Below, piece by piece: positions 1 to 59,560 of a DNA stretch of 64,000 nucleotides; within the stretch, counting starts at the first letter, position 1, and the number at the start of each line of letters is the position of its first letter. Under the pieces are notes generated by a model that saw only the letters and a program-made list of their open reading frames with translations, was not told the DNA's origin and did not search any database. The stretch spans positions 62,001-126,000 of the forward strand of contig JAJDCS010000014.1 in the NCBI GenBank assembly GCA_029260715.1, read 5' to 3'. This stretch comes from Phycisphaeraceae bacterium (GTDB lineage: Bacteria > Planctomycetota > Phycisphaerae > Phycisphaerales > Phycisphaeraceae). A program made the translations under genes and the position numbers.

Positions 1-2760
1 GCCGCCGCGGCCAAAGGCGGCCAGCAAGACGACGCTTGGCTGGCGGCCACCGCGCCGGTTATGTCAGACGCGACGGAAACCAACTGGACTTGGCCGCACA
101 TCACGAACCTCAATGGGATTTTTCTTACCAGTGTCCAAGACGGCAGCCTAACGAAACCCACGGAGGTCGTCGTTAATTACCAATCCGCTGACGAGAAAGA
201 CAGCGATGTTCGTTTCTTGACAAACGGTTCCAACAATACGCTGTTGGACAACGGCGACCTGGTCGACGCCGACGGCGACGGCATCGCCGACAGCCGCTGG
301 ACCTGGGCGCCAGTCCGCAAAGTCGGCGGTGTGGTGTACGTCATGGCTGTACGCATCATCGACAACAGCTCGCTGATCAACGCGAATGTCGCGCTGAGCA
401 CATTAGGTGATTATTCAGGGACATATAAATACGACGATTCCTCCAGCGGCGCAGACTCCCCACGCTGGTGGTCGCCGGCGGAATTGGACTTGGGGAATTT
501 TGTTTATAGCCATGCGGGCGTTTCAACAACAATTACAAACGAACTTAAAGCCCTTCTGGATGAGCGCGTCGGCACCGATGCGCTACCCACACCGTGGGGG
601 GAATCCAGCGGTCAGCGCCACCATTTCTGGCGAAACGGCCCGGCTATGTACGGCAACTTCGATTCAACCTACAAGCACCTGACCATCGACGATGAACTGG
701 AGCTTCGCTACCGCAACGGGCTCAACGACGACGGCACTGTGAGCGGCCTTGAATCGGTGATGCCGGATTTTCTCCGCGGCAGCGCTACTGGCGAGTATCG
801 ATACTCAAATGTCCCCGGCGTGCCTGACGCCTCGACGGCTACTTCTGACGTTGATGCGTATTTCGAGAAGAACCCGCGTCTGTGGATGACCGCTGTTAGC
901 GGTGCTGCGGTCTACGCGCCACCGTTCTCGGAGAACGGCGACGCGTCGTTGAGCCGGAAGACCGACTTGAATCAAGCAAACTTAACAACGCTCTCCAACG
1001 CTATACGCGACGTTCTTGACGCGGGTGCTGCGGCGTACCCCATCCCCGTCGCCTACGCGGATACAACCGAATTCGCCGACCAGTTCGCCGTGTGTATTAA
1101 GGATTACGCCGACACCGACAACAAGCTGACCGAGCACAACGGGCGATACGGCATGGAGGCGCTGCCGGCCATCGCCGAGGTGTATGCCCAAGGCCGGTAC
1201 GTGGCGACGTCGGCGTCGGCCTTGGCGTCTCCGCCCGCAGCGGCAAACAGTTGGGACGTCGATTGGGATCGGGTGGGCATTGCCGGTTTTGCGATTGAAA
1301 TCCGCAACCCGTTCCCCATGCCGATCAAGCTAACCGACGTGAATTTATGGGTGGGTGGAAGTGATTGGGGCTCACTGGACACGCTTGCCGGGCAGACGGA
1401 GCTAGATGTGGATGAGGTTTTGATCTTTTACCGCCATTCACGCGACACCAATTCAGGCGATGACAAGGTGGACTCGCTGTGGTCAAGCGGAAACATTACG
1501 CCCGTAGTGCTCACATCCCAAACCTGGCCGGACACAGATGGCGCGATCACCGTGGAGCTGCGCGTCAAAGACGACGGAGATAACGCCATGGTCAAGCCGT
1601 ATGCCGCGGCGGAGTCTGAGGGCTTGCCTATCCAGAAGACGCTGACAGAGGTGAGCCCCGTCGATCCAGCCGGCACCGTTGACTATTGGCAGATCACCGC
1701 GATCGGCAACGGCAACGGCCTAAACACACTGACGATTAAACCTGATGAGTTTGTACCGGGCGGGAAAAACCCAAGCCCCGTTCCCGCGCCTGTTAGGAAC
1801 GCAAGCTTCGTCGATCTTGGGGAGGCGATCAAGAGCAACGGCGCCGTTGATAAAATTAATTTAGCGACCAACCCCAGCCAGATCTTGATCAGCGATGAGG
1901 GCGACATCAACCAGGTCGGCGAGTTGGCGCACATCGCGATCATCGGGCCTGTGCCCGGCAGCAGTAAGACCGTGGCGGATGTGTGGGACACCGCATCCGA
2001 TGTGAAAGCTTTTATGCTCGACTTCGGCACGAACGTTCTCGTTGACGTCGGCAAAGACGCCCTGGCGGTCCCGCACGCTGTGTTGATGCTCGACCGGTTC
2101 ACCACGATGAGCCCAGCGGTCGACGGCAAGGACAACGACGGGGACGGCGTCAACGACAACCAAGAGGAGCAACTAATCCCCGGCACGATCAACCTGAACA
2201 CGGTGCCGGGGATTGAAGCCGTGGACGAGAACAATGACACACACTTGCTCCAGCGTGTGTTGCCGATCCAAGACCGGATTGTTCGGAGGGATGTCATCAA
2301 AGCCATCCTCAACTACCGCGATAAAGCAGCGCCGTATCATCAGACAAGCACCCGCGACCGTAATAACCCAGGCATCGCGTATATCGGTGAACTGATGAAG
2401 TGTGTGGCTGCCACAAGCCAGTCAATTGACGTGTTGGCAAACGGCACGCTATACCCCGGCGACACTTCGATTCTTTCAGACGGCAGCGACTACGTCGTGG
2501 ATTTCCTAAGCCCCGACAACGCCGCGGACGGCATCGCCGACGACCGCGAGGAAGAGGCCATGATCATGCGGTGGCTTGCACAGACCTGCTCCACGCGGAG
2601 CGATATCTTCACCGCCTACGTGGTGATCCAAGGCTTCCCAGCCGACGACTTCACAAAAGGGGCGGTCGAGTCGAGGCGGTTCTACGCGGTATTCGACCGC
2701 TCGCGGATCACAGGTAAGAACGACGTGGTGCGTGTGCTAGGCGTGCGCGAGCTGCATTAA
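1..2760 (+). CDS. GspK-like pseudopilin-associated protein, 5'-truncated by the window edge
   Basis: The frame is open from base 1, so the true start probably lies outside the window. The first in-window ATG, at 61, has no Shine-Dalgarno sequence. About 920 residues are visible. Near residue 709 (counted from 61) is a GTINLNTVP segment, followed about 60 residues later by IAYIGEL. This resembles the 'INVNTAP ... IGELL' pattern of GspK-type minor pseudopilins, which cap type II secretion pseudopili and carry a helix-hairpin-helix-like fold. Several DxDGDGxxDxxW-type acidic motifs (around residues 68-80 and 690) could bind calcium. The N-terminal prepilin segment would be upstream and cannot be checked. 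The GspK assignment rests on these short motifs only. A long non-coding region follows, so this is probably the last gene of its operon. Confidence 0.5.
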   Translation, partial: AAAAKGGQQDDAWLAATAPVMSDATETNWTWPHITNLNGIFLTSVQDGSLTKPTEVVVNYQSADEKDSDVRFLTNGSNNTLLDNGDLVDADGDGIADSRWTWAPVRKVGGVVYVMAVRIIDNSSLINANVALSTLGDYSGTYKYDDSSSGADSPRWWSPAELDLGNFVYSHAGVSTTITNELKALLDERVGTDALPTPWGESSGQRHHFWRNGPAMYGNFDSTYKHLTIDDELELRYRNGLNDDGTVSGLESVMPDFLRGSATGEYRYSNVPGVPDASTATSDVDAYFEKNPRLWMTAVSGAAVYAPPFSENGDASLSRKTDLNQANLTTLSNAIRDVLDAGAAAYPIPVAYADTTEFADQFAVCIKDYADTDNKLTEHNGRYGMEALPAIAEVYAQGRYVATSASALASPPAAANSWDVDWDRVGIAGFAIEIRNPFPMPIKLTDVNLWVGGSDWGSLDTLAGQTELDVDEVLIFYRHSRDTNSGDDKVDSLWSSGNITPVVLTSQTWPDTDGAITVELRVKDDGDNAMVKPYAAAESEGLPIQKTLTEVSPVDPAGTVDYWQITAIGNGNGLNTLTIKPDEFVPGGKNPSPVPAPVRNASFVDLGEAIKSNGAVDKINLATNPSQILISDEGDINQVGELAHIAIIGPVPGSSKTVADVWDTASDVKAFMLDFGTNVLVDVGKDALAVPHAVLMLDRFTTMSPAVDGKDNDGDGVNDNQEEQLIPGTINLNTVPGIEAVDENNDTHLLQRVLPIQDRIVRRDVIKAILNYRDKAAPYHQTSTRDRNNPGIAYIGELMKCVAATSQSIDVLANGTLYPGDTSILSDGSDYVVDFLSPDNAADGIADDREEEAMIMRWLAQTCSTRSDIFTAYVVIQGFPADDFTKGAVESRRFYAVFDRSRITGKNDVVRVLGVRELH

Positions 2761-3609
2761 ACGTCGCCATAAGCTCACATATCCATATAGATAGCGCCTT
2801 TAGCCCCTTTCGCTGAGGCGGGTTGCCGCCCCTGCACCTCGGGTTTCACCATGAATATGGGGGATTCCACCAGGCGTTAGGCCATTTTCTCGGGGAATCC
2901 CCTGGCCGGGATTCAGAATCTGCCTGATTCACACTCAGCCTGCAGTCTTGTCTAATGTAACCCATGAGATGAAGACAGCGTATCGGTCACGCAAGGCCGA
3001 CAGCCGTTTTTCCATAAGTTGTTAATACGAATGAAGAAATATGACGGGTGGTGGAAGGCTGATGGGAAGTCAATCGTGGAGAAGGGAAAGACAGAGAGTG
3101 GGGCCGGCGGGTGAAACCCCTTCCGGCTTCATGGCAAAAACAAGTGGTCAACGTCCACCGGGCCAGATTTCGTAAGCCTCTTCACAGGCGGCTCATATTG
3201 CTGTGCGTGAGCCGCCTGTACTTTTTTATTTTCAGGATGGGCAGGCCCCGTTTTTCGGTATAAACAGTTTAAATTAGGCAATTTGTGTGCAGTGGGCGCT
3301 TTGGCGGATTAATGAAAATAGGGGAATTAGTGGGCAGGTATCAAATATTTTGAGCCAAATACACAAAAAAGCATTGCTTGATTTCACTCAACGTATTATC
3401 ATGGTACATTAAGAAGGTAGGATTCTAGAGAAATAGCGCGATATTACCTCCTGGGGGAGGAGAGATTAACCGTACTTTAGACCTACGTTACGATGGTTGA
3501 TTGACTTTAGTGCGGTAGAATTGCACTTTTCGCAAGGTCGTAGTGAGGCACGAAGAAAGCTCTTTTGAAGCAATCCAAAAACCCATACCCAGCATGGAAG
3601 GGAACAACG
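2761..3609. other. 849-bp non-coding stretch, possibly containing an ncRNA
   Basis: No convincing reading frame is present. Features visible: an imperfect hairpin with 9-bp arms (2860-2868 and 2894-2902), a purine-rich segment at about 3040-3110, a GC-rich segment around 3100-3150, and a strong terminator at 3184-3227. Downstream of the terminator the DNA becomes AT-rich and contains TTGATT followed by TATTAT/TACATT, a possible promoter for the PEP-CTERM gene at 3610. I compared 2940-3226 by eye with RNase P, tmRNA, SRP, 6S and c-di-GMP-I riboswitch signatures and saw no match. Confidence 0.4.
3184..3227 (+). terminator. Rho-independent terminator
   Basis: A 12-bp perfect stem (3184-3195 pairing with 3208-3219) has a 12-nt loop and is followed within two bases by six T residues. 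It lies 420 bp past the nearest upstream gene, so it may end a separate non-coding transcript. Confidence 0.8.
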
Positions 3610-4362
3610 ATGAATAAGTGGTGCGCAATCGCGGTAGTAGCGATTTCAGCCTTTGCGGCGTCCGCCCAGGCCGAAGTGATCGTGCGTTTTATTGTCGATA
3701 TCGATACAGATGCGAAGAGCTTTAACATTTTTGTCGAAGACCTCGCCCCTGTGGCTACCATGTCAGGCCAACTAGGCAACGGCGGCATCGCCGGGTTCTC
3801 GATTAGCTTCGATCAGAAAATCAACACCCGGAGCAGCATCCTGATTGAGTCTTTGGAACTGGGAAGGCTCAGTGGCCAAGTCTTTGTACCCGGCCAAGGT
3901 TTTGTGGATACGGGATTTGAATTAGACAGCACGAGCGATGGTCACGACCTGGACCCGAACGATCCAGGCATGGACGCACCGAATATGTTCGCGATACAAC
4001 GCGACAGCCTGACGCTTTACCAGTTTGGTCAGATTGCGGGCGCGATCGACAACGACAACTTCGGGGCATTTCCCAATGACGGCCCGATTCCCTTCGGCCG
4101 GCCGGCCTTGGTTGGCAGCGGAACTTTTTCGAGTGCCTTGTCTGCCAGTGAGATAGTCGCACAATTTCCTGTAACCTCCATCGGGGCTACGGTTTTCAGC
4201 TTTGTTGGAGCGTCGGTGAGTGGGGACAACGTGGCCGATCTGACGGGTGATGAATTGGAGTTGGTGATCAACTCAAATGTCATACCCGAGCCGGCTTCGT
4301 TAGCCATGTTAGCCGTGGGTGCGGGCCTTGTGTTCACCGGGCGCAAGCGGGAAACCCTGTAG
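3610..4362 (+). CDS. Secreted PEP-CTERM sorting-domain protein
   Basis: This 250-residue exported protein starts at ATG 3610, which has a purine-rich GGAAGGGA ribosome site and directly precedes a signal peptide (MNKWCAIAVV... ending ASAQA). The frame stays open 15 codons upstream, but that extension precedes the signal peptide and is rejected. The mature part is rich in Asp, Gly and Ser and has no recognised enzyme fold. The C-terminus shows the full PEP-CTERM tripartite signal: VIPEPASLAM, a hydrophobic span, then the basic tail RKRETL. In other bacteria such tags are processed by an exosortase and linked to exopolysaccharide export. No exosortase gene is in the window. Function is unknown beyond surface or extracellular sorting. 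Confidence 0.9.
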   Translation: MNKWCAIAVVAISAFAASAQAEVIVRFIVDIDTDAKSFNIFVEDLAPVATMSGQLGNGGIAGFSISFDQKINTRSSILIESLELGRLSGQVFVPGQGFVDTGFELDSTSDGHDLDPNDPGMDAPNMFAIQRDSLTLYQFGQIAGAIDNDNFGAFPNDGPIPFGRPALVGSGTFSSALSASEIVAQFPVTSIGATVFSFVGASVSGDNVADLTGDELELVINSNVIPEPASLAMLAVGAGLVFTGRKRETL

Positions 4363-6411: not shown

Positions 6412-7737
6412 ATGCAAGGCACAATCGCCAAGGAGCAACTGGCCTATCTGACCACGGACCTGCCGGGGATCGGCGGGGCGATCAAGCACCGCCCCGAAGA
6501 CTTCCTCGTCGAAGAGCAGCCGCTGTACGAACCGACCGGCAGCGGCGAGCACTTGTTGATGTGCATCCAAAAGCAACTCCGCAGCACCAGCGACGTGGTG
6601 CGGCACCTTTCAAGTGTATTCCACGTCAGCAAGCGGGAGATCGGGTACGCGGGGTTGAAGGACAAGCACGCGGTTTCGACCCAGCACTTCACCGTGCGCC
6701 TGCCCGACCCCGGACGCGACAGCGAACTGCTCGACCAATTCAACCACACGCACTACAAGCTGCTGTGGGCCCAGCGCCACCTCAACAAGCTCAAGCGGGG
6801 ACACCTGGCGGGTAACCGTTTTGTGATCAAGATCCGCGAGGTGGACCCCATGGCAGCGGTGGATGTCCGACGCGTTGTGGACCGCCTGGTGGCGCACGGC
6901 GTGCCCAACTACGTGGGCTATCAGCGGTTCGGGTATAGAGCGGTGAACCACAAGATCGGCAGGCTCCTGCTGTTGGGCAAGTGGCAAGAGATGCTCGACC
7001 TCATGCTGGGCCACCCACACGAATCGGACCACCTGCCCACTCGTGCCGCTCGTGAGGCTTATCTAAAAAAAGACTACGCAGCCGCGTTGGCGCAGTTGCC
7101 CCGTCACCTGCACCACGACCGCCAGGCGCTCGACGCCCTGCGCCAGGGCAAGACCCCACAAGACGCGGTCATGACCATCAGCACCCAGCAGCGCACTTTT
7201 TTCATTAGCGCGTTGCAGTCGGCGGTGTTCAACCGCGTGTTGCATCACCGCTTGACGGACCCGAGTTCGCCTGGGATCGATCGGCTGACGGAGGGCGACT
7301 TGGCGTGGAAGCACGATAAACGCGCGGTCTTCGCAGTGGACCACGCAACAGCGGAGTTGGAGAATCAGCCCGACCAGCGTGTCAAGCGGCTGGAGGTATC
7401 GCCATCGGGGCCCATGTGGGGCGCCGGCATGCTCAAGGCCGACGGGGTGGTTGGCCAGTGGGAGGAACAGGCTTTAATCCAAGAGGGGTTGGCCGAGTCC
7501 GACCTGCAAGGCGGCCCGCACGCCAAAGCCCCCGGCGACCGCAGGCCCATGCGCGTGGTCATGAAAAACCCCGACGTGTCGGGCGGTGTTGATGAGCATG
7601 GGCCTTATATCCGTTTGGCGTTCGATCTGCCCCGCGGCAGCTTCGCTACCACCGTGTTGCGTGAGATCACCAAGAACACACTAAACCACACACAAAACTA
7701 CCATGCCCCCTCACCACAAGCCCCGGCTGCTGATTAG
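6412..7737 (+). CDS. truD: tRNA pseudouridine(13) synthase TruD
   Basis: 441 residues, longer than the roughly 350 of E. coli TruD. It isomerises U13 of tRNA(Glu) and related targets. The catalytic motif GYAGLKDKHAVSTQ gives D84 as the nucleophile. The N-terminal KHRPEDFLVEE and the central NYVGYQRFG motifs are typical of the family, and the TRUD insertion domain is present. Start ATG 6412. Its last 35 nt overlap mfnB in another frame, so the two genes are likely co-transcribed, although no shared function is known. Confidence 0.95.
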   Translation: MQGTIAKEQLAYLTTDLPGIGGAIKHRPEDFLVEEQPLYEPTGSGEHLLMCIQKQLRSTSDVVRHLSSVFHVSKREIGYAGLKDKHAVSTQHFTVRLPDPGRDSELLDQFNHTHYKLLWAQRHLNKLKRGHLAGNRFVIKIREVDPMAAVDVRRVVDRLVAHGVPNYVGYQRFGYRAVNHKIGRLLLLGKWQEMLDLMLGHPHESDHLPTRAAREAYLKKDYAAALAQLPRHLHHDRQALDALRQGKTPQDAVMTISTQQRTFFISALQSAVFNRVLHHRLTDPSSPGIDRLTEGDLAWKHDKRAVFAVDHATAELENQPDQRVKRLEVSPSGPMWGAGMLKADGVVGQWEEQALIQEGLAESDLQGGPHAKAPGDRRPMRVVMKNPDVSGGVDEHGPYIRLAFDLPRGSFATTVLREITKNTLNHTQNYHAPSPQAPAAD

Positions 7738-8554
7738 CGTGCGCACCGCTGCTGAGGCGGTCGAGGCATTGGCTGGCGGGGCGGACATTATTGATATCAA
7801 AGAACCGGCGAACGGCCCGCTGGGTCGAGCCGACGACGAGGTCTGGCGGCAGGTCGTTGAAACGGTCGGCTGTCGGGCGTCGGTTAGTGTCGCGCTTGGT
7901 GAGCTTGGGCAGGGGCCGCCGCCTCGGCTGCCTGAGAATATATGTGCGAAGTCTATAGAGACAAGTGAATCGGGTGCCACTGGCTGCTTGCCAGCCAGTG
8001 CGAATGCACCATCACGCCCGCACTGGCGGACCAGCCGCCAGTGGCACACCGCTTCTCACACATTTTCTGAGGGCATTGCTTTCGCCAAGGTCGGCTTGGC
8101 CGGGGCACCGCCCGATTGGGAACAGCGGCTATTAGATTATGCAAAGCGGTTGGGCGTGACGGGGTTTGTCCCGGTCGCCTACGCGGATGGCCGGTCGGTC
8201 GCGGCTCCGCCGGTGGAGTTGGTCTTGGCGTGGGCGTGTCGTTACCGCGCCGCCGCAGTGATGATCGACACAGCCAACAAGCGAGGCGGCGGCTTGTTTG
8301 ATTGGGTTACTCCCGACATGGTCGCGGGGTGGATCGCCAAAGCCCGGCGGGCGGGTGTGGCGATCGCGCTAGCGGGGTCGTTGCGGGACGACCGCTTGGC
8401 TCAGGCGATTGCGTTGATGCCCGATATCGTGGGCGTGCGCGGCGCTGCTTGTCAGGGTGGCGATCGCATGGCGGGGGTAAACGCTCAAAGCGTACGCGGC
8501 TTGGCTAATCTGCTTGCAACACGCACCGCGACGGCGGCTGCGCACGCAGGTTGA
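7703..8554 (+). CDS. mfnB: (5-formylfuran-3-yl)methyl phosphate synthase MfnB, with an in-frame inserted segment
   Basis: MfnB (formerly DUF556) makes the furan phosphate precursor of methanofuran from two glyceraldehyde-3-phosphate molecules. The (beta/alpha) barrel motifs are present: GGADIIDIKEP (Schiff-base-type lysine K33), FAKVGL (K129), MIDTANK (D189, K193), ALAGS and IVGVRGAAC. The ORF encodes 283 residues against about 235 for family members. The excess is residues 79-123, encoded by a repeat element (7937-8066 plus one copy of a 5-bp direct repeat). Without it the protein would read RLPE-GIAFAKVGL at 238 residues. All active-site lysines lie outside the insert. The 3' end overlaps the opposite-strand kinase gene by 50 bp. 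Whether the protein with its insert is active is unknown. Confidence 0.87.
   Translation: MPPHHKPRLLISVRTAAEAVEALAGGADIIDIKEPANGPLGRADDEVWRQVVETVGCRASVSVALGELGQGPPPRLPENICAKSIETSESGATGCLPASANAPSRPHWRTSRQWHTASHTFSEGIAFAKVGLAGAPPDWEQRLLDYAKRLGVTGFVPVAYADGRSVAAPPVELVLAWACRYRAAAVMIDTANKRGGGLFDWVTPDMVAGWIAKARRAGVAIALAGSLRDDRLAQAIALMPDIVGVRGAACQGGDRMAGVNAQSVRGLANLLATRTATAAAHAG
7937..8066. mobile_element. 130-bp MITE/REP-like palindromic element inserted in mfnB
   Basis: The element is bracketed by direct repeats CTGAG (7932-7936 and 8067-8071) that look like a target-site duplication. Its ends are imperfect inverted repeats (AATATATGTGCGAAG against AAAATGTGTGAGAAG). Inside are two hairpins: GTGCCACTGGCTG...CCAGCCAGTG (7974-8000) and CACTGGCGG/CCGCCAGTG (8021-8029 and 8035-8043). 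Element plus one direct repeat is 135 bp, exactly 45 codons, and starts on a codon boundary, so the frame is kept. The 27 nt at 7974-8000 are the exact reverse complement of 55955-55981. Confidence 0.8.
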
Positions 8555-9113
8555 CCAACTCGACGCGCGCCAGAGAGGCCGCGGCCACCTGAAAATCACC
8601 GTCGATAATGCCTTGCTCGCACGCCTGGGCCAGGCTCGGTGTGCCTTTGGGTAGGGCGGATTTGAGCAGGACGAGGCGATCGGCGTGCAGGCGCGTGGCG
8701 ATGTGCGCGGCGATCGAATCGCTGGTGAAGCTCCAGCGGTGGGGGGTGGTCACGCCTTGCCGGTGCTCGCTATCGAGCCAGGCCAGCGGATCGACCAAGG
8801 CCAACTCACCGGCTGCCCACGCGCCGGCACACTCGTCGGCGTTGGTCACGACGCGCGTGCGCCGCAGCACAGCCGCCATCATGTAGCAGTTGAGCTGCAT
8901 CGCCCGGACCGCCAGCCAATGCCCCGCCTCCTCGCCGAGGGTGTGCTGTTGGTCGAATTGCCGCACGTGCTCGGCTGCGCGCCCGCCCCCGACGAGGAGC
9001 ACGCCCTGATGGCTCATGTCAGACTCGCGGAACGCGTTGAATCGCGCTGGCAGTTCGGGCTGATCCAACAGGCTTCCGCCAAGCTTGACGACTTGTGGTT
9101 TAAACTGCGGCAT
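8505..9113 (-). CDS. Small amino-acid-kinase-fold protein of the H4MPT/methanofuran gene block
   Basis: 202 residues from ATG 9113; a TTG at 9125 is also possible. VVKLGGSLLD at the N-terminus is the Gly-rich phosphate loop of the amino acid kinase superfamily, GVLLVGGGRAAE is the second glycine motif, and TSDSIAAHIA near the C-terminus matches the nucleotide-binding part. In archaea MfnE, a kinase of this fold, phosphorylates the aminomethylfuran phosphate intermediate of methanofuran. Short homologs occur beside mch in bacteria with H4MPT-linked C1 metabolism. MfnE-like function is inferred from fold and context. The start overlaps the end of the upstream gene by 14 bp, suggesting translational coupling. 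Confidence 0.75.
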   Translation of the reverse strand: MPQFKPQVVKLGGSLLDQPELPARFNAFRESDMSHQGVLLVGGGRAAEHVRQFDQQHTLGEEAGHWLAVRAMQLNCYMMAAVLRRTRVVTNADECAGAWAAGELALVDPLAWLDSEHRQGVTTPHRWSFTSDSIAAHIATRLHADRLVLLKSALPKGTPSLAQACEQGIIDGDFQVAAASLARVELVNLRAQPPSRCVLQAD

Positions 9114-10131
9114 GGGCGGTATCAACTATGTGGGTAGGAGCGGTCGCGAGTTTGGCCACAGCGTAGGCGCACGCCGCGATTGAAGCCGCTTCGCCGATAG
9201 CATCTGCGAGCAAGACACGCGGCACACCCGGCAAAGCGAACTTGGCGGCTTGTTGAGCAAGGAAGCTCCCGCTACCGGTGATCAGCACGCGGTCAATAGT
9301 GTCAGCGCTTGCGATCCGCTTGATGCTGTCGCCGATGCGTCGGCGCATCACACCCGCGAACACACCGGCTAATTCGCGTGCGTCCTGGGCCGTGAGCGTT
9401 TCCAAGTCGGCCCCGATCATGCGCACGATTCTCACCGCGGCGTGGGTGCGTGTCTCGGGTCGGCCGTCGGGGGTGTCCGTGCATGCTGGGTCTTCGGGGA
9501 GATCACCGGTCAGCAGGAACACATCCGCGGTGGACGCGAACCAGTCGGCCGTGATAGCGGTGTCGCGGCCACGCCAGGGAATCGTCGGCCCAAGCGTAGC
9601 CAACGGCGTGTGCCGGGCTCCAATATAGACCAACTCACCGGTGGCCAGGCGCTGCGTGTCGGTCAGTCCGTCGGAATCAACACAGCCGTTGTCTAGTCGG
9701 ACAATGTCCGTGGTGGTAGAGCCGGTGTCGACCAGCAGCGTCAGCCCTTGGGGGTACAAACTTGCCGCGTAGGTGGCTAAGGCGTGCCAGTTGGCTGCGG
9801 CGACGTTGAGGGGCGTGCGACGCGCTTCATCGGGCGTGACGAATCGGCCTTGCGTCGACCACACGCCGATCGGCCTGCCATGGGCGATCATTTCAACGGC
9901 CGCCAACACGAGGCCCACGCCCTGACGCTTGGTCTCGAAACAATCGCACAACTCGGCGGTCATGGTGACAGCCAGTTGGTCGAACGCGCCCGCCAGCGCC
10001 GCGACGCTTGTGAGCTTCTCACATAACAGGCCGGGGTCTTCACACACCCGAAACGGCACCACCCACGCGCCGCCGCTGCCGTGCGCCGTTTTGATGTTCA
10101 CGCCGCCGATGTCCAGCCCCAGCACGCTCAC
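9100..10131 (-). CDS. Hydantoinase/oxoprolinase-fold protein of the H4MPT-linked C1 pathway
   Basis: 343 residues. It has an actin-like ATPase fold: GLDIGGVNIKTAH at the start is phosphate loop 1, LLVDTGSTTTDIV in the middle is phosphate loop 2, and VLITGSGSFLA is the adenosine motif. This matches the hydantoinase A/oxoprolinase-related family that accompanies H4MPT genes in methylotrophs and planctomycetes and is thought to act in H4MPT or methanofuran cofactor assembly. The exact reaction is not established to my knowledge. The GTG start at 10131 overlaps the mch stop codon as GTGA, so mch, this gene and the kinase form a tightly coupled operon. Confidence 0.82.
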   Translation of the reverse strand: MSVLGLDIGGVNIKTAHGSGGAWVVPFRVCEDPGLLCEKLTSVAALAGAFDQLAVTMTAELCDCFETKRQGVGLVLAAVEMIAHGRPIGVWSTQGRFVTPDEARRTPLNVAAANWHALATYAASLYPQGLTLLVDTGSTTTDIVRLDNGCVDSDGLTDTQRLATGELVYIGARHTPLATLGPTIPWRGRDTAITADWFASTADVFLLTGDLPEDPACTDTPDGRPETRTHAAVRIVRMIGADLETLTAQDARELAGVFAGVMRRRIGDSIKRIASADTIDRVLITGSGSFLAQQAAKFALPGVPRVLLADAIGEAASIAACAYAVAKLATAPTHIVDTAHAAV

Positions 10132-11054
10132 GGGTCTGTTTTCCCTTTAAGGATTTTGTGCAGCGGCAGGTGTATTTTCCCGAGCCTGCCGCCGTGGTCG
10201 CACGCGGTGATCGCGGTCACACCCTCGCCGCACGCAGCCGTGATGCCCACGCGCATGGCCTGCTCGACCGCTTGGCGCGTCAGCCCGTCAATCACAATCT
10301 CGTAGACACACTCAACCCCGTCGCGCAGCTTCGAGCGTACCTGTTCGCGTAGGGGGGGGCAGTACGACTCGTTGGTCGACGCGCCGACGTTGGGGGTTTT
10401 CGCGCCGACCTTTGACCCGCTGCGTACCACGCCGTTGGGGAACGGGGTGATCGCATCGGGCACGTGGGCGATCGCGTCAACGGCCCGGCACGCTGCCTGT
10501 AACGCCCTGGCCTGATCGCCGGCGCAGATCAAGAACTGCCCGCCACCCACAGCCGGAATCGCTCTAGCCGACGCCTCGACGACGAACCAGCCGTCCATGA
10601 CCGGTATGCGCAAGCAGGTGCGCCCGTGTGTCTCTGCCCGCTGCTCAAAACCGTCGCCGAAAACACTGATATTTTCACCGATCGGTATTCGCTGTGTTTG
10701 TGTGGGCAACAGGTCGCGAGGCGTGCCGTCGAATAAAGCCGTGGTCGGGCAGGTCAGCACGCACTGGCCCACGCGGTTGGTCGCCGCTCGGGCCAGATCA
10801 TCCACGGACCGTGTGAAGAACATCATGGCCACGCCCGCCCGGCGGTCGGGGGTTTGCGTGGCGTCGAGAACGCTGTCGATCCCCGCCTCCGCGTCGCAGC
10901 CGATGATCGACGCGCCGTACCCGGTCGCCTCCTGCGCCGCCGCCCGCGCCCACCGCCCGTCCACCGCCGTGACGATCAGCCGACACGCCCACATATCAAA
11001 CGCCTCTGCGTAAGTGTCTTCGATAATTGTTCCGCGCAGTTCCATACAGGACAT
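10128..11054 (-). CDS. mch: Methenyltetrahydromethanopterin cyclohydrolase
   Basis: 308 residues. Mch interconverts methenyl-H4MPT and formyl-H4MPT in C1 oxidation. The family is recognised by NVGASTNESYCPPLR, VECVYEIVIDGLT and the C-terminal HGGRLGKIHLPL; methylotroph Mch proteins commonly end in a similar glycine-lysine-leucine motif. Upstream FPNGVVRSGSKVGAK is also characteristic. First gene of a three-gene minus-strand operon. In non-methylotrophic planctomycetes the pathway is usually read as formaldehyde detoxification or C1 balance; that role here is inference. Formyltransferase (fhc) and methylene-H4MPT dehydrogenase genes are not in the window. Confidence 0.92.
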   Translation of the reverse strand: MSCMELRGTIIEDTYAEAFDMWACRLIVTAVDGRWARAAAQEATGYGASIIGCDAEAGIDSVLDATQTPDRRAGVAMMFFTRSVDDLARAATNRVGQCVLTCPTTALFDGTPRDLLPTQTQRIPIGENISVFGDGFEQRAETHGRTCLRIPVMDGWFVVEASARAIPAVGGGQFLICAGDQARALQAACRAVDAIAHVPDAITPFPNGVVRSGSKVGAKTPNVGASTNESYCPPLREQVRSKLRDGVECVYEIVIDGLTRQAVEQAMRVGITAACGEGVTAITACDHGGRLGKIHLPLHKILKGKTDP

Positions 11055-11957: not shown

Positions 11958-12208
11958 TATCGTCCGTGTATTCCACGGGCGGGCAAGCCACCAACGGCAC
12001 CCGCACACGGTTGGGCATTAAATTGGCTAAGACAGTTGATCTTGCCTGCCTCAGGAGATTCGGATGGACCAAAATGATTGAAGAAAAATGTCTTGGTGAA
12101 GGTTGCTGTTGGTAGTACAATAATTACCAATACAACTTTGCCATTGTTGGCGGAGGTCATCTGGGAAATATCGGCCTATATATTCACAGCTTGAATAAGG
12201 TTAATTGC

Positions 12209-12913: not shown

Positions 12914-13089
12914 CGCCGGGCGCCTTGGCTAACTCGTGTAGACGGGTGCCACGGCCAACTAGTGCCGTAGGGTGTGCTTCAGCACACCACTTTTGGAACA
13001 CGGTTTTAATCGTGGTGTGCTGAAGCACACCCTACAAAAATTAACATCCAGGTAGGCCCGACAAGATTCCCCGACATACGGATGACGGG
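12914..13089 (-). pseudogene. Degraded DUF3179 gene fragment split by a hairpin element
   Basis: 12914-12941 matches 13317-13344 inside the intact DUF3179 gene in the same orientation at 26 of 28 bases, and on the minus strand it still reads LHELAKAPG. After an interruption, 13051-13060 matches 13347-13356 (GGTAGGCCCG) and the following bases resemble the gene down to GACGGG. The fragment therefore aligns collinearly with the gene but is interrupted at about 12946-13050. No intact reading frame remains. Confidence 0.65.
12967..13035. repeat. 69-bp palindromic element with perfect 24-bp arms
   Basis: Arms 12967-12990 and 13012-13035 are perfect inverted repeats (GTAGGGTGTGCTTCAGCAC... and its complement) around a 21-nt spacer. 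It interrupts the DUF3179 relic. A REP-type or MITE origin fits; no transposase is nearby. Confidence 0.75.
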
Positions 13090-13140
13090 CTGCTTGTCAG
13101 CCAGTGTGATTGACTTTCCCCGCGACTGCGTACTCTACAC

Positions 13141-55881: not shown

Positions 55882-56020
55882 CTAGAAGCCATCCCAAAAC
55901 CCCAAACGGCAGATCACCGGCAACGGTCGGTCCGTTGCAAACCTCCGCCATTTACACTGGCTGGCAAGCAGCCAGTGGCACACAATTCAACCTCATCAGG
56001 GGTTTTGGGATAGCTTCTAG
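55882..56020. mobile_element. 139-bp MITE-like element
   Basis: Terminal inverted repeats of 22 bp (55882-55903 and 55999-56020; CTAGAAGCCATCCCAAAACC... with one mismatch) enclose a core that contains CACTGGCTGGCAAGC...GTGGCAC (55955-55981), an exact 27-nt reverse complement of part of the mfnB insert. No coding capacity. The terminal repeats differ from those of the mfnB element although the core is shared. Confidence 0.75.
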
Positions 56021-59324: not shown

Positions 59325-59445
59325 TCGATCACTAATCAGGTCACACCGCCCGGTTGCGACGCGTTACGCGCCGCCGCAAGCACCGGCAGTTGCTAAGTAC
59401 ACGCAGCCTCATACGGATCATAATAAGTGACGTCGCAACAGGTGT

Positions 59446-59515
59446 GTCGCGGGTTGCTTGCAACCCGTGTTGTATTTTGCGTTCTTTACACAGCTTGCAA
59501 GCAAGCTGTGCCACC
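59446..59515. repeat. Twin REP-like palindromes
   Basis: CGGGTTGC-TT-GCAACCCG (59450-59467) and CACAGCTTGC-AA-GCAAGCTGTG (59489-59510) are perfect hairpins, flanked by GGTGTGTCGC and GCCACCCG. The GTGCCACCC end recalls the other palindromic families in this window. Confidence 0.6.
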
Positions 59516-59560
59516 CGATGCGATCTTAATTGAACGCCAAAACTTTTTATGATCCGTATC

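Follow-up and report, generated by a model that had tools for sequence, protein, structure and literature searches.

The mfnB locus

The window, the whole stretch of 64,000 nucleotides that was analysed, comes from a Phycisphaeraceae genome (G000) and carries an mfnB gene that is interrupted in frame by a short palindromic element and lies beside genes resembling others of the same pathway. The features of the locus are as follows.

7703–8554, plus strand: mfnB, (5-formylfuran-3-yl)methyl phosphate synthase, interrupted in frame; 283 codons; PF04476, E 3.5e-51
7933–7935, plus strand: target-site duplication TGA, left
7936–8067, plus strand: MITE-like element of 132 bp, adding 45 codons together with the 3-bp duplication; inverted ends, TGA duplication, second copy
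7936–7951, plus strand: left terminal inverted repeat, 13/16 to the right end
7974–8001, plus strand: REP palindrome 1, with its own 9-bp hairpin
8020–8047, minus strand: REP palindrome 2, with its own 9-bp hairpin; its opposite orientation makes the pair a doublet
8052–8067, minus strand: right terminal inverted repeat; when extended by one base, 16/17 to the end GAAAGTGTGTGAGAAGC of genome G026
8068–8070, plus strand: target-site duplication TGA, right
8505–9125, minus strand: mfnE-like amino acid kinase, pathway neighbour; NF040622 below cut-off
9100–10131, minus strand: mfnF-like/H4MPT-linked C1 protein, pathway neighbour; TIGR03123 above cut-off, MfnF model below
10128–11051, minus strand: ftr, formylmethanofuran–H4MPT formyltransferase; PF01913, PF02741

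The Pfam match to the window MfnB is split into two stretches, and the MfnB-type models of NCBIfam also match the protein, every one under its own cut-off. Its closest solved fold is MJ1099 (4rc1/4u9p), the MfnB of M. jannaschii, which has the same barrel (TM 0.81–0.82 by target length), about 240 residues, and 32 fewer residues than the window protein between the two matched stretches. The nearest MfnBs in named genomes are those of Phycisphaeraceae and other Planctomycetota. Pfam returned no intein match in MfnB, and the insert has only 45 residues. The mfnB and mfnE-like genes converge and overlap by 50 bp at their 3′ ends (window 8505–8554).

The earlier note had described a MITE-like insertion between CTGAG repeats, and this description holds. 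The repeats lie at 7932 and 8067, 135 bp apart, the insert begins at the start of codon 79 (7937, in the reading frame that opens at 7703), and deletion of 135 bp joins ...RLPE to GIAFAKVGL... and yields a normal MfnB of 238 residues. The insert is stop-free in the mfnB frame and adds 45 codons, and ENICAKSIETSESGATGC... forms part of the peptide it is predicted to encode. The extent of the element had to be refined from the 5-bp CTGAG repeats to 132 bp with a TGA duplication (TGA|GAATATATGTGCGAAG ... CTTCTCACACATTTTC|TGA), because a 3-bp TNA duplication gives the exact register of the ends in both copies of the element and in 12 elements of G026 described below. The outer C and G of CTGAG are attributed to fortuitous agreement of the host sequence with the element ends.

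The terminal inverted repeats, imperfect as had been proposed, pair at 13 of 16 positions, and the two internal hairpins are both perfect over 9 bp and nested in a 29-bp inverted pair (86%). When 63,860 positions of the window were tested at this element length, a 4-bp repeat at a distance of 135 was present at 543 and ends matching at 13 or more of 16 bases at one; position 7933 is the sole one that combines both. The core of the element contains two opposed palindromes, the arrangement that defines a REP doublet or REPIN, and the REP has the form GGGTGCCACTGGC...GCCAGTG. This core recurs in the window, as had been claimed, at 55949–55989 (90% over 41 bp), 13085–13112 (86%) and 11966–12003 (79%).

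A second copy in the same phase

The expectation of further copies was borne out by a second full copy at G000:C13:114019–114158 (91% identical by BLAST within the own genome, the match covering 114022–114158), located in a gene for a DUF2169 protein; an element-specific 25-mer (≤3 mismatches) occurs at two places in the genome, mfnB and the DUF2169 gene. The edges of this copy, TAA|GAATGTGTGTCAGAAG ... CTTCTCACACACTTTC|TAA, again enclose 132 bp and add 135 bp in total. The host gene has 543 codons and its domain is matched in two stretches, compared with one in the paralog on contig C32; this paralog and the counterparts in G046 and G060 are without a stretch of about 63 residues, 45 of which derive from the element. 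The element shows three hallmarks of a MITE: terminal inverted repeats (13/16 in mfnB, 14/16 in DUF2169), a target-site duplication (TGA and TAA, respectively) and several copies, two of them full copies in G000, with no transposase of their own since 132 bp is too short to encode one.

Both copies have the identical strand and phase relative to their gene. The three plus-strand frames contain 1, 3 and 0 stops in either copy, and the minus-strand frames 1, 1 and 1 in the mfnB copy and 1, 2 and 1 in the DUF2169 copy; one of the six frames is open in both, and both genes use that frame. A shared orientation and the use of the sole open frame are the pattern expected once selection has removed broken genes, and imply no benefit from the insert. 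The copies differ at 13 of 135 positions (6, 2 and 5 by codon position), with dN 0.088 and dS 0.154, values that derive from 13 differences only and resemble those at one of two other frame offsets. Although the genome is a draft in 44 contigs, several of them ending in repeats, these differences, and the fact that flanks and target duplication are particular to each copy, make an assembly artefact a practically negligible explanation.

The sense-strand RNA of the insert is predicted to fold at −65.4 kcal/mol (z −7.0 relative to shuffled sequences), and the search for known RNA families produced only a sub-threshold match to isrG (E 0.47). A hairpin of this kind could slow ribosomes or, given the matched flanking codons, permit skipping. 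If ribosomes bypassed the insert between the duplicated codons, GAG–GAG in mfnB and AAG–AAG in DUF2169, this would agree with a strong hairpin set between identical codons, which the duplication and a length divisible by three place on either side. However, bypassing needs neither such a length nor an open frame, whereas both copies use only the frame that is open in both, which favours plain translation. We consider bypassing extremely improbable.

Tolerance at the insertion site

Relatives of MfnB were represented by 12 proteins extracted from 18 loci and by 35 aligned out of 80 loci, two overlapping sets, and none of the 12 or the 35 has a segment matching the insert. The empty site that had been anticipated is thus present, in more distant relatives: the nearest ones share only 36–51% protein identity with the window MfnB (35 aligned). 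Neither a conserved segment in relatives nor a lack of other copies, the two findings named beforehand as telling against an insertion, was encountered. At the same site the MfnB of genome G023 (L076, identical to L002) carries a segment of about 27 residues that is unrelated to the insert, and several other relatives have shorter unrelated expansions at or near it, which indicates that the site is tolerant of changes in length.

An AlphaFold2 model of the window MfnB (36 input sequences) has a mean pLDDT of 86.5; 209 of its 283 residues score at least 90, residues 82–121 fall below 50 and most other ten-residue blocks exceed 90. The barrel is thus confidently modelled and the insert, positioned between strands 60–67 and 127–131, is predicted to be disordered. 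In the alignment, all 15 columns that are invariant across 36 rows are shared by the window protein, including K33, K129, D189 and K193. The catalytic residue of archaeal MfnB is given as Lys155 in the available text of the structural literature (PMC11365854), and K193 is taken to be its counterpart on the basis of the alignment. Activity of the insert-bearing protein is likely, though unproven, since the protein search of the own genome found a single MfnB gene among the matches listed and mfnE-, mfnF- and ftr-like genes adjoin it.

The gene could alternatively have been damaged by the insertion and be on its way to loss, the open frame merely reflecting a recent arrival. The rarity of REPs in recognisable genes (4 of 32 loci, see below) would be in line with such damage, but mfnB has no stop and no frameshift, the family-invariant residues are kept, the pathway neighbours are present and the barrel model is confident, so that we hold this scenario to be quite unlikely. 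The opposite possibility is that the insert has been domesticated, for instance as a contact surface or as an RNA hairpin that tunes translation. The earlier note had offered both tolerance and domestication; tolerance is supported, and domestication had the open frame as its sole support. The very stable predicted hairpin could be cited in its favour, as could the coded peptides of the two copies, which show 6 differences over 44 element positions. Yet hairpin and peptide both follow from the REP sequence, the two target genes are unrelated and the loop is predicted to be disordered; domestication strikes us as highly improbable.

Related elements in a second genus

Protein searches with MfnB and DUF2169 led to tens of REP doublets in G023 and G026 among the matches listed. 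The 32 stretches of G026, a genome of another genus, were fetched via protein matches and are therefore a biased sample. In 13 of them a GAAAGYGTGTGAGAAGC-like end pair (≤2 substitutions) surrounds the REP doublet, and 19 are without such a pair. Identical 3-bp flanks (TAA, TCA, TTA or ACA) accompany 12 of the 13 end pairs; eleven of these 12 complete elements measure 144 bp and one 143 bp, and the pair that lacks identical flanks also spans 144 bp. At its right end the mfnB element agrees with the G026 type of end (GAAAGYGTGTGAGAAGC) in 16 of 17 positions. The ends, the duplication and the REP cargo thus belong to a single transposon family that spans at least two genera. Five of the 12 G026 copies have spanning frames (six in all), for which Pfam yielded no match above cut-off, the best being one weak sub-cut-off match to DDE_3; the other seven copies have no spanning frame.

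These relatives were reached through the REP doublets rather than through the left-arm 25-mer (≤3 mismatches), which among 51 genomes of the family occurs in the own genome only. Across the phylum two of 392 genomes match this 25-mer; the second, G328, was judged a chance match on an estimate of about two such matches at the scale of 392 genomes, and a reversed control also matched once (G150).

End patterns revealed no autonomous partner with the same ends in the 96.5% complete draft genome, and the fetched stretches showed no kilobase-scale element bounded by both ends. The end pattern matches 13 times versus twice for its reversed control, meaning that chance accounts for some of the weaker ends. 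Additional isolated ends lie at C43:166838, C43:12160 and elsewhere in the own genome. A shorter end pair at C9:76516 encloses 120 bp with a TAA duplication, ends at 11/17 and a different internal palindrome, and another at C9:133513 spans 239 bp (13/17) without a matching duplication. The complete elements, at 120, 132 and 144 bp, are spaced by 12 in length. At L184, L188, L190 and L191 in G000, ends of the same type adjoin a second palindrome family (ACGAGCCGCGACCGTAAGGGAGCGGTC); the genes downstream of some of them are, we presume from their appearance, uvrB and ispH.

REPs and other MITE families in the genome

The REP pattern occurs as 36 units in the genome, against none for the reversed control, and these were counted as 32 loci. 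Four loci fall in genes (mfnB, DUF2169, the SMC hinge and murJ), where recognition as a gene required an open frame of 150 codons or more across the REP and a Pfam match around it, in place of a full gene call; for copies at contig ends the gene context is not judgeable. Two further REPs (C28:48857 and C13:122763) lie in spanning frames that have no Pfam match, and the remaining loci have no such frame. At L042 a weaker REP-like match in an open frame lies upstream of a lipase domain and probably precedes the true lipase start.

The SMC gene (L053, G000:C44:103200–107250, ORF 21–3920 on the minus strand) has a single in-frame REP in its hinge domain, read in the same frame as in mfnB, and murJ (L051, G000:C5:54860–58890, ORF 388–2682 on the plus strand) has a single antisense REP, in frame, in a loop. 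Against the REP-coded core, 18 of 23 SMC relatives have no residue and five have 2–7, and 19 of 22 MurJ relatives have none and three have 3–6 (L270 was left out of the MurJ alignment by the length or stop filter), so both loops vary in length among relatives. In G049, a member of another family, mnmG contains an in-frame REP doublet (L166, 1501–1605) that codes AGATGGSPASA...EHWRTSRQWH in the same frame as in mfnB; this MnmG has 90 residues between matched regions versus 56 in a solved MnmG.

The REP doublet in mfnB could have been inserted by a RAYT-type (Y1) transposase, with the ends and the duplication around it being incidental. The genome encodes three Y1_Tnp-like proteins, two of them above cut-off, no such ends were noted around the single REPs in SMC and murJ, and on C29, the contig of a Y1 gene, the sole REP is followed directly by CTAC, the complement of the GTAG tag. 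On the other hand, no Y1 gene is directly flanked by a REP of the mfnB type, the nearest being that on C29 at about 1.6 kb, and the ends and duplication sit in exact register in both copies, while 12 elements of G026 show the same ends with a 3-bp duplication. We therefore judge a RAYT origin very unlikely. A GTAG/CGTC tag within 8 nt of the hairpin is present in 4 of 31 distinct units, with neither mfnB unit among them.

Other MITE families also carry REPs. Family A (131 bp, one copy 130 bp, CTAG-like flanks) occupies 15 places in the fetched stretches, and window 55886–56016, which includes the core recurrence at 55949–55989, is one of its copies; several copies sit at contig ends and probably broke the assembly. 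Family B (128–129 bp, no clear duplication) was seen at four places and family C (132 bp) at one. Element E at window 59412–59558 measures 147 bp and has a TCA duplication, ends at 15/16 and its own pair of REP-like palindromes. A blind scan of the fetched stretches for inverted ends with a 3-bp repeat gave mostly noise beyond the named families.

A probable transposon tolerated as a protein loop

Based on the above, we propose that the insert is very probably a non-autonomous transposon, presumably moved by a transposase that makes 3-bp duplications, and tolerated as a flexible loop in MfnB. A short transposon, bounded by inverted repeats and holding a REP pair at its centre, would have been mobilised in trans, entered mfnB and duplicated 3 bp of its target. 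A copy in the right phase and direction would leave the gene readable, because element and duplication total 135 bp and one of the six frames is stop-free. The ribosome would then translate the insert into a flexible loop of 45 residues just before a core barrel strand, at a place where the MfnB family already varies in length, so that the fold would be kept and activity probably as well. Copies landing in any other phase or direction would cut the protein short and be eliminated.

A further-reaching proposal is that these elements form a transposon family shaped for survival inside genes, spreading as portable loops through the proteins of the phylum. In 14 of the 15 elements that have ends of this type and a 3-bp duplication, the length with duplication is divisible by three (120+3 once, 132+3 twice and 144+3 eleven times, the exception being that of 143 bp), element E (147+3) is also a multiple of three, a single frame is open in both gene copies of G000, and the small, flexible cargo peptide GATGxxPAS...HWRTSRQWH recurs in MfnB, DUF2169 and the G049 MnmG (REP doublet, same frame). 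Family C, whose length is no multiple of three once a TA or CTAG duplication is added, counts against this proposal, which we regard as unlikely.

Relation to known systems

NCBIfam includes models for Rickettsia palindromic elements (RPEs), and none matched the MfnB protein at E ≤ 0.001. RPEs are described, in the available text, as mobile palindromes of ~150 bp, some of which lie in frame within genes for unrelated proteins, where they encode a conserved peptide (PMC10969869). The planctomycete element is alike in its in-frame insertion in unrelated protein genes (mfnB, DUF2169), but its host belongs to a different phylum; it also combines inverted ends with a 3-bp duplication and carries a REP pair, a comparison drawn with the published description of RPEs only. 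REP singles and dimers are also reported within ORFs, possibly neutral in linkers or loops, in the accessible portion of one study (PMC3733652). Some of the planctomycete REPs likewise lie inside ORFs as singles and dimers, but differ from the GTAG/CGTC superfamilies in having no consistent tag and, in mfnB, in being carried by a larger transposon-like unit. Short non-autonomous bacterial MITEs sometimes fuse in frame, as stated in the consulted passages for QMITE of Coxiella and for ERIC/RU (PMC5896051, PMC2759123). The in-frame cases given there concern hypothetical proteins and a gene end, whereas the present element is located mid-domain in two conserved domains, in the same frame.

Within the portions of the literature covered, in-frame palindromes (Rickettsia), intragenic REPs (several species and phyla) and in-frame MITEs (Coxiella) are therefore already known, and none of the matches listed names this element. 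The combination not met in the literature covered is that of a planctomycete transposon with readable ends, a 3-bp duplication and a REP pair, inserted in the same phase in two conserved domains, with related elements outside recognisable genes. In-frame palindromic elements of such a size are best known from Rickettsia, and another phylum now shows the same outcome. Its readable ends, duplication, empty sites and elements outside recognisable genes make the conversion of selfish DNA into protein directly testable, and MfnB offers a simple enzyme assay for that question.
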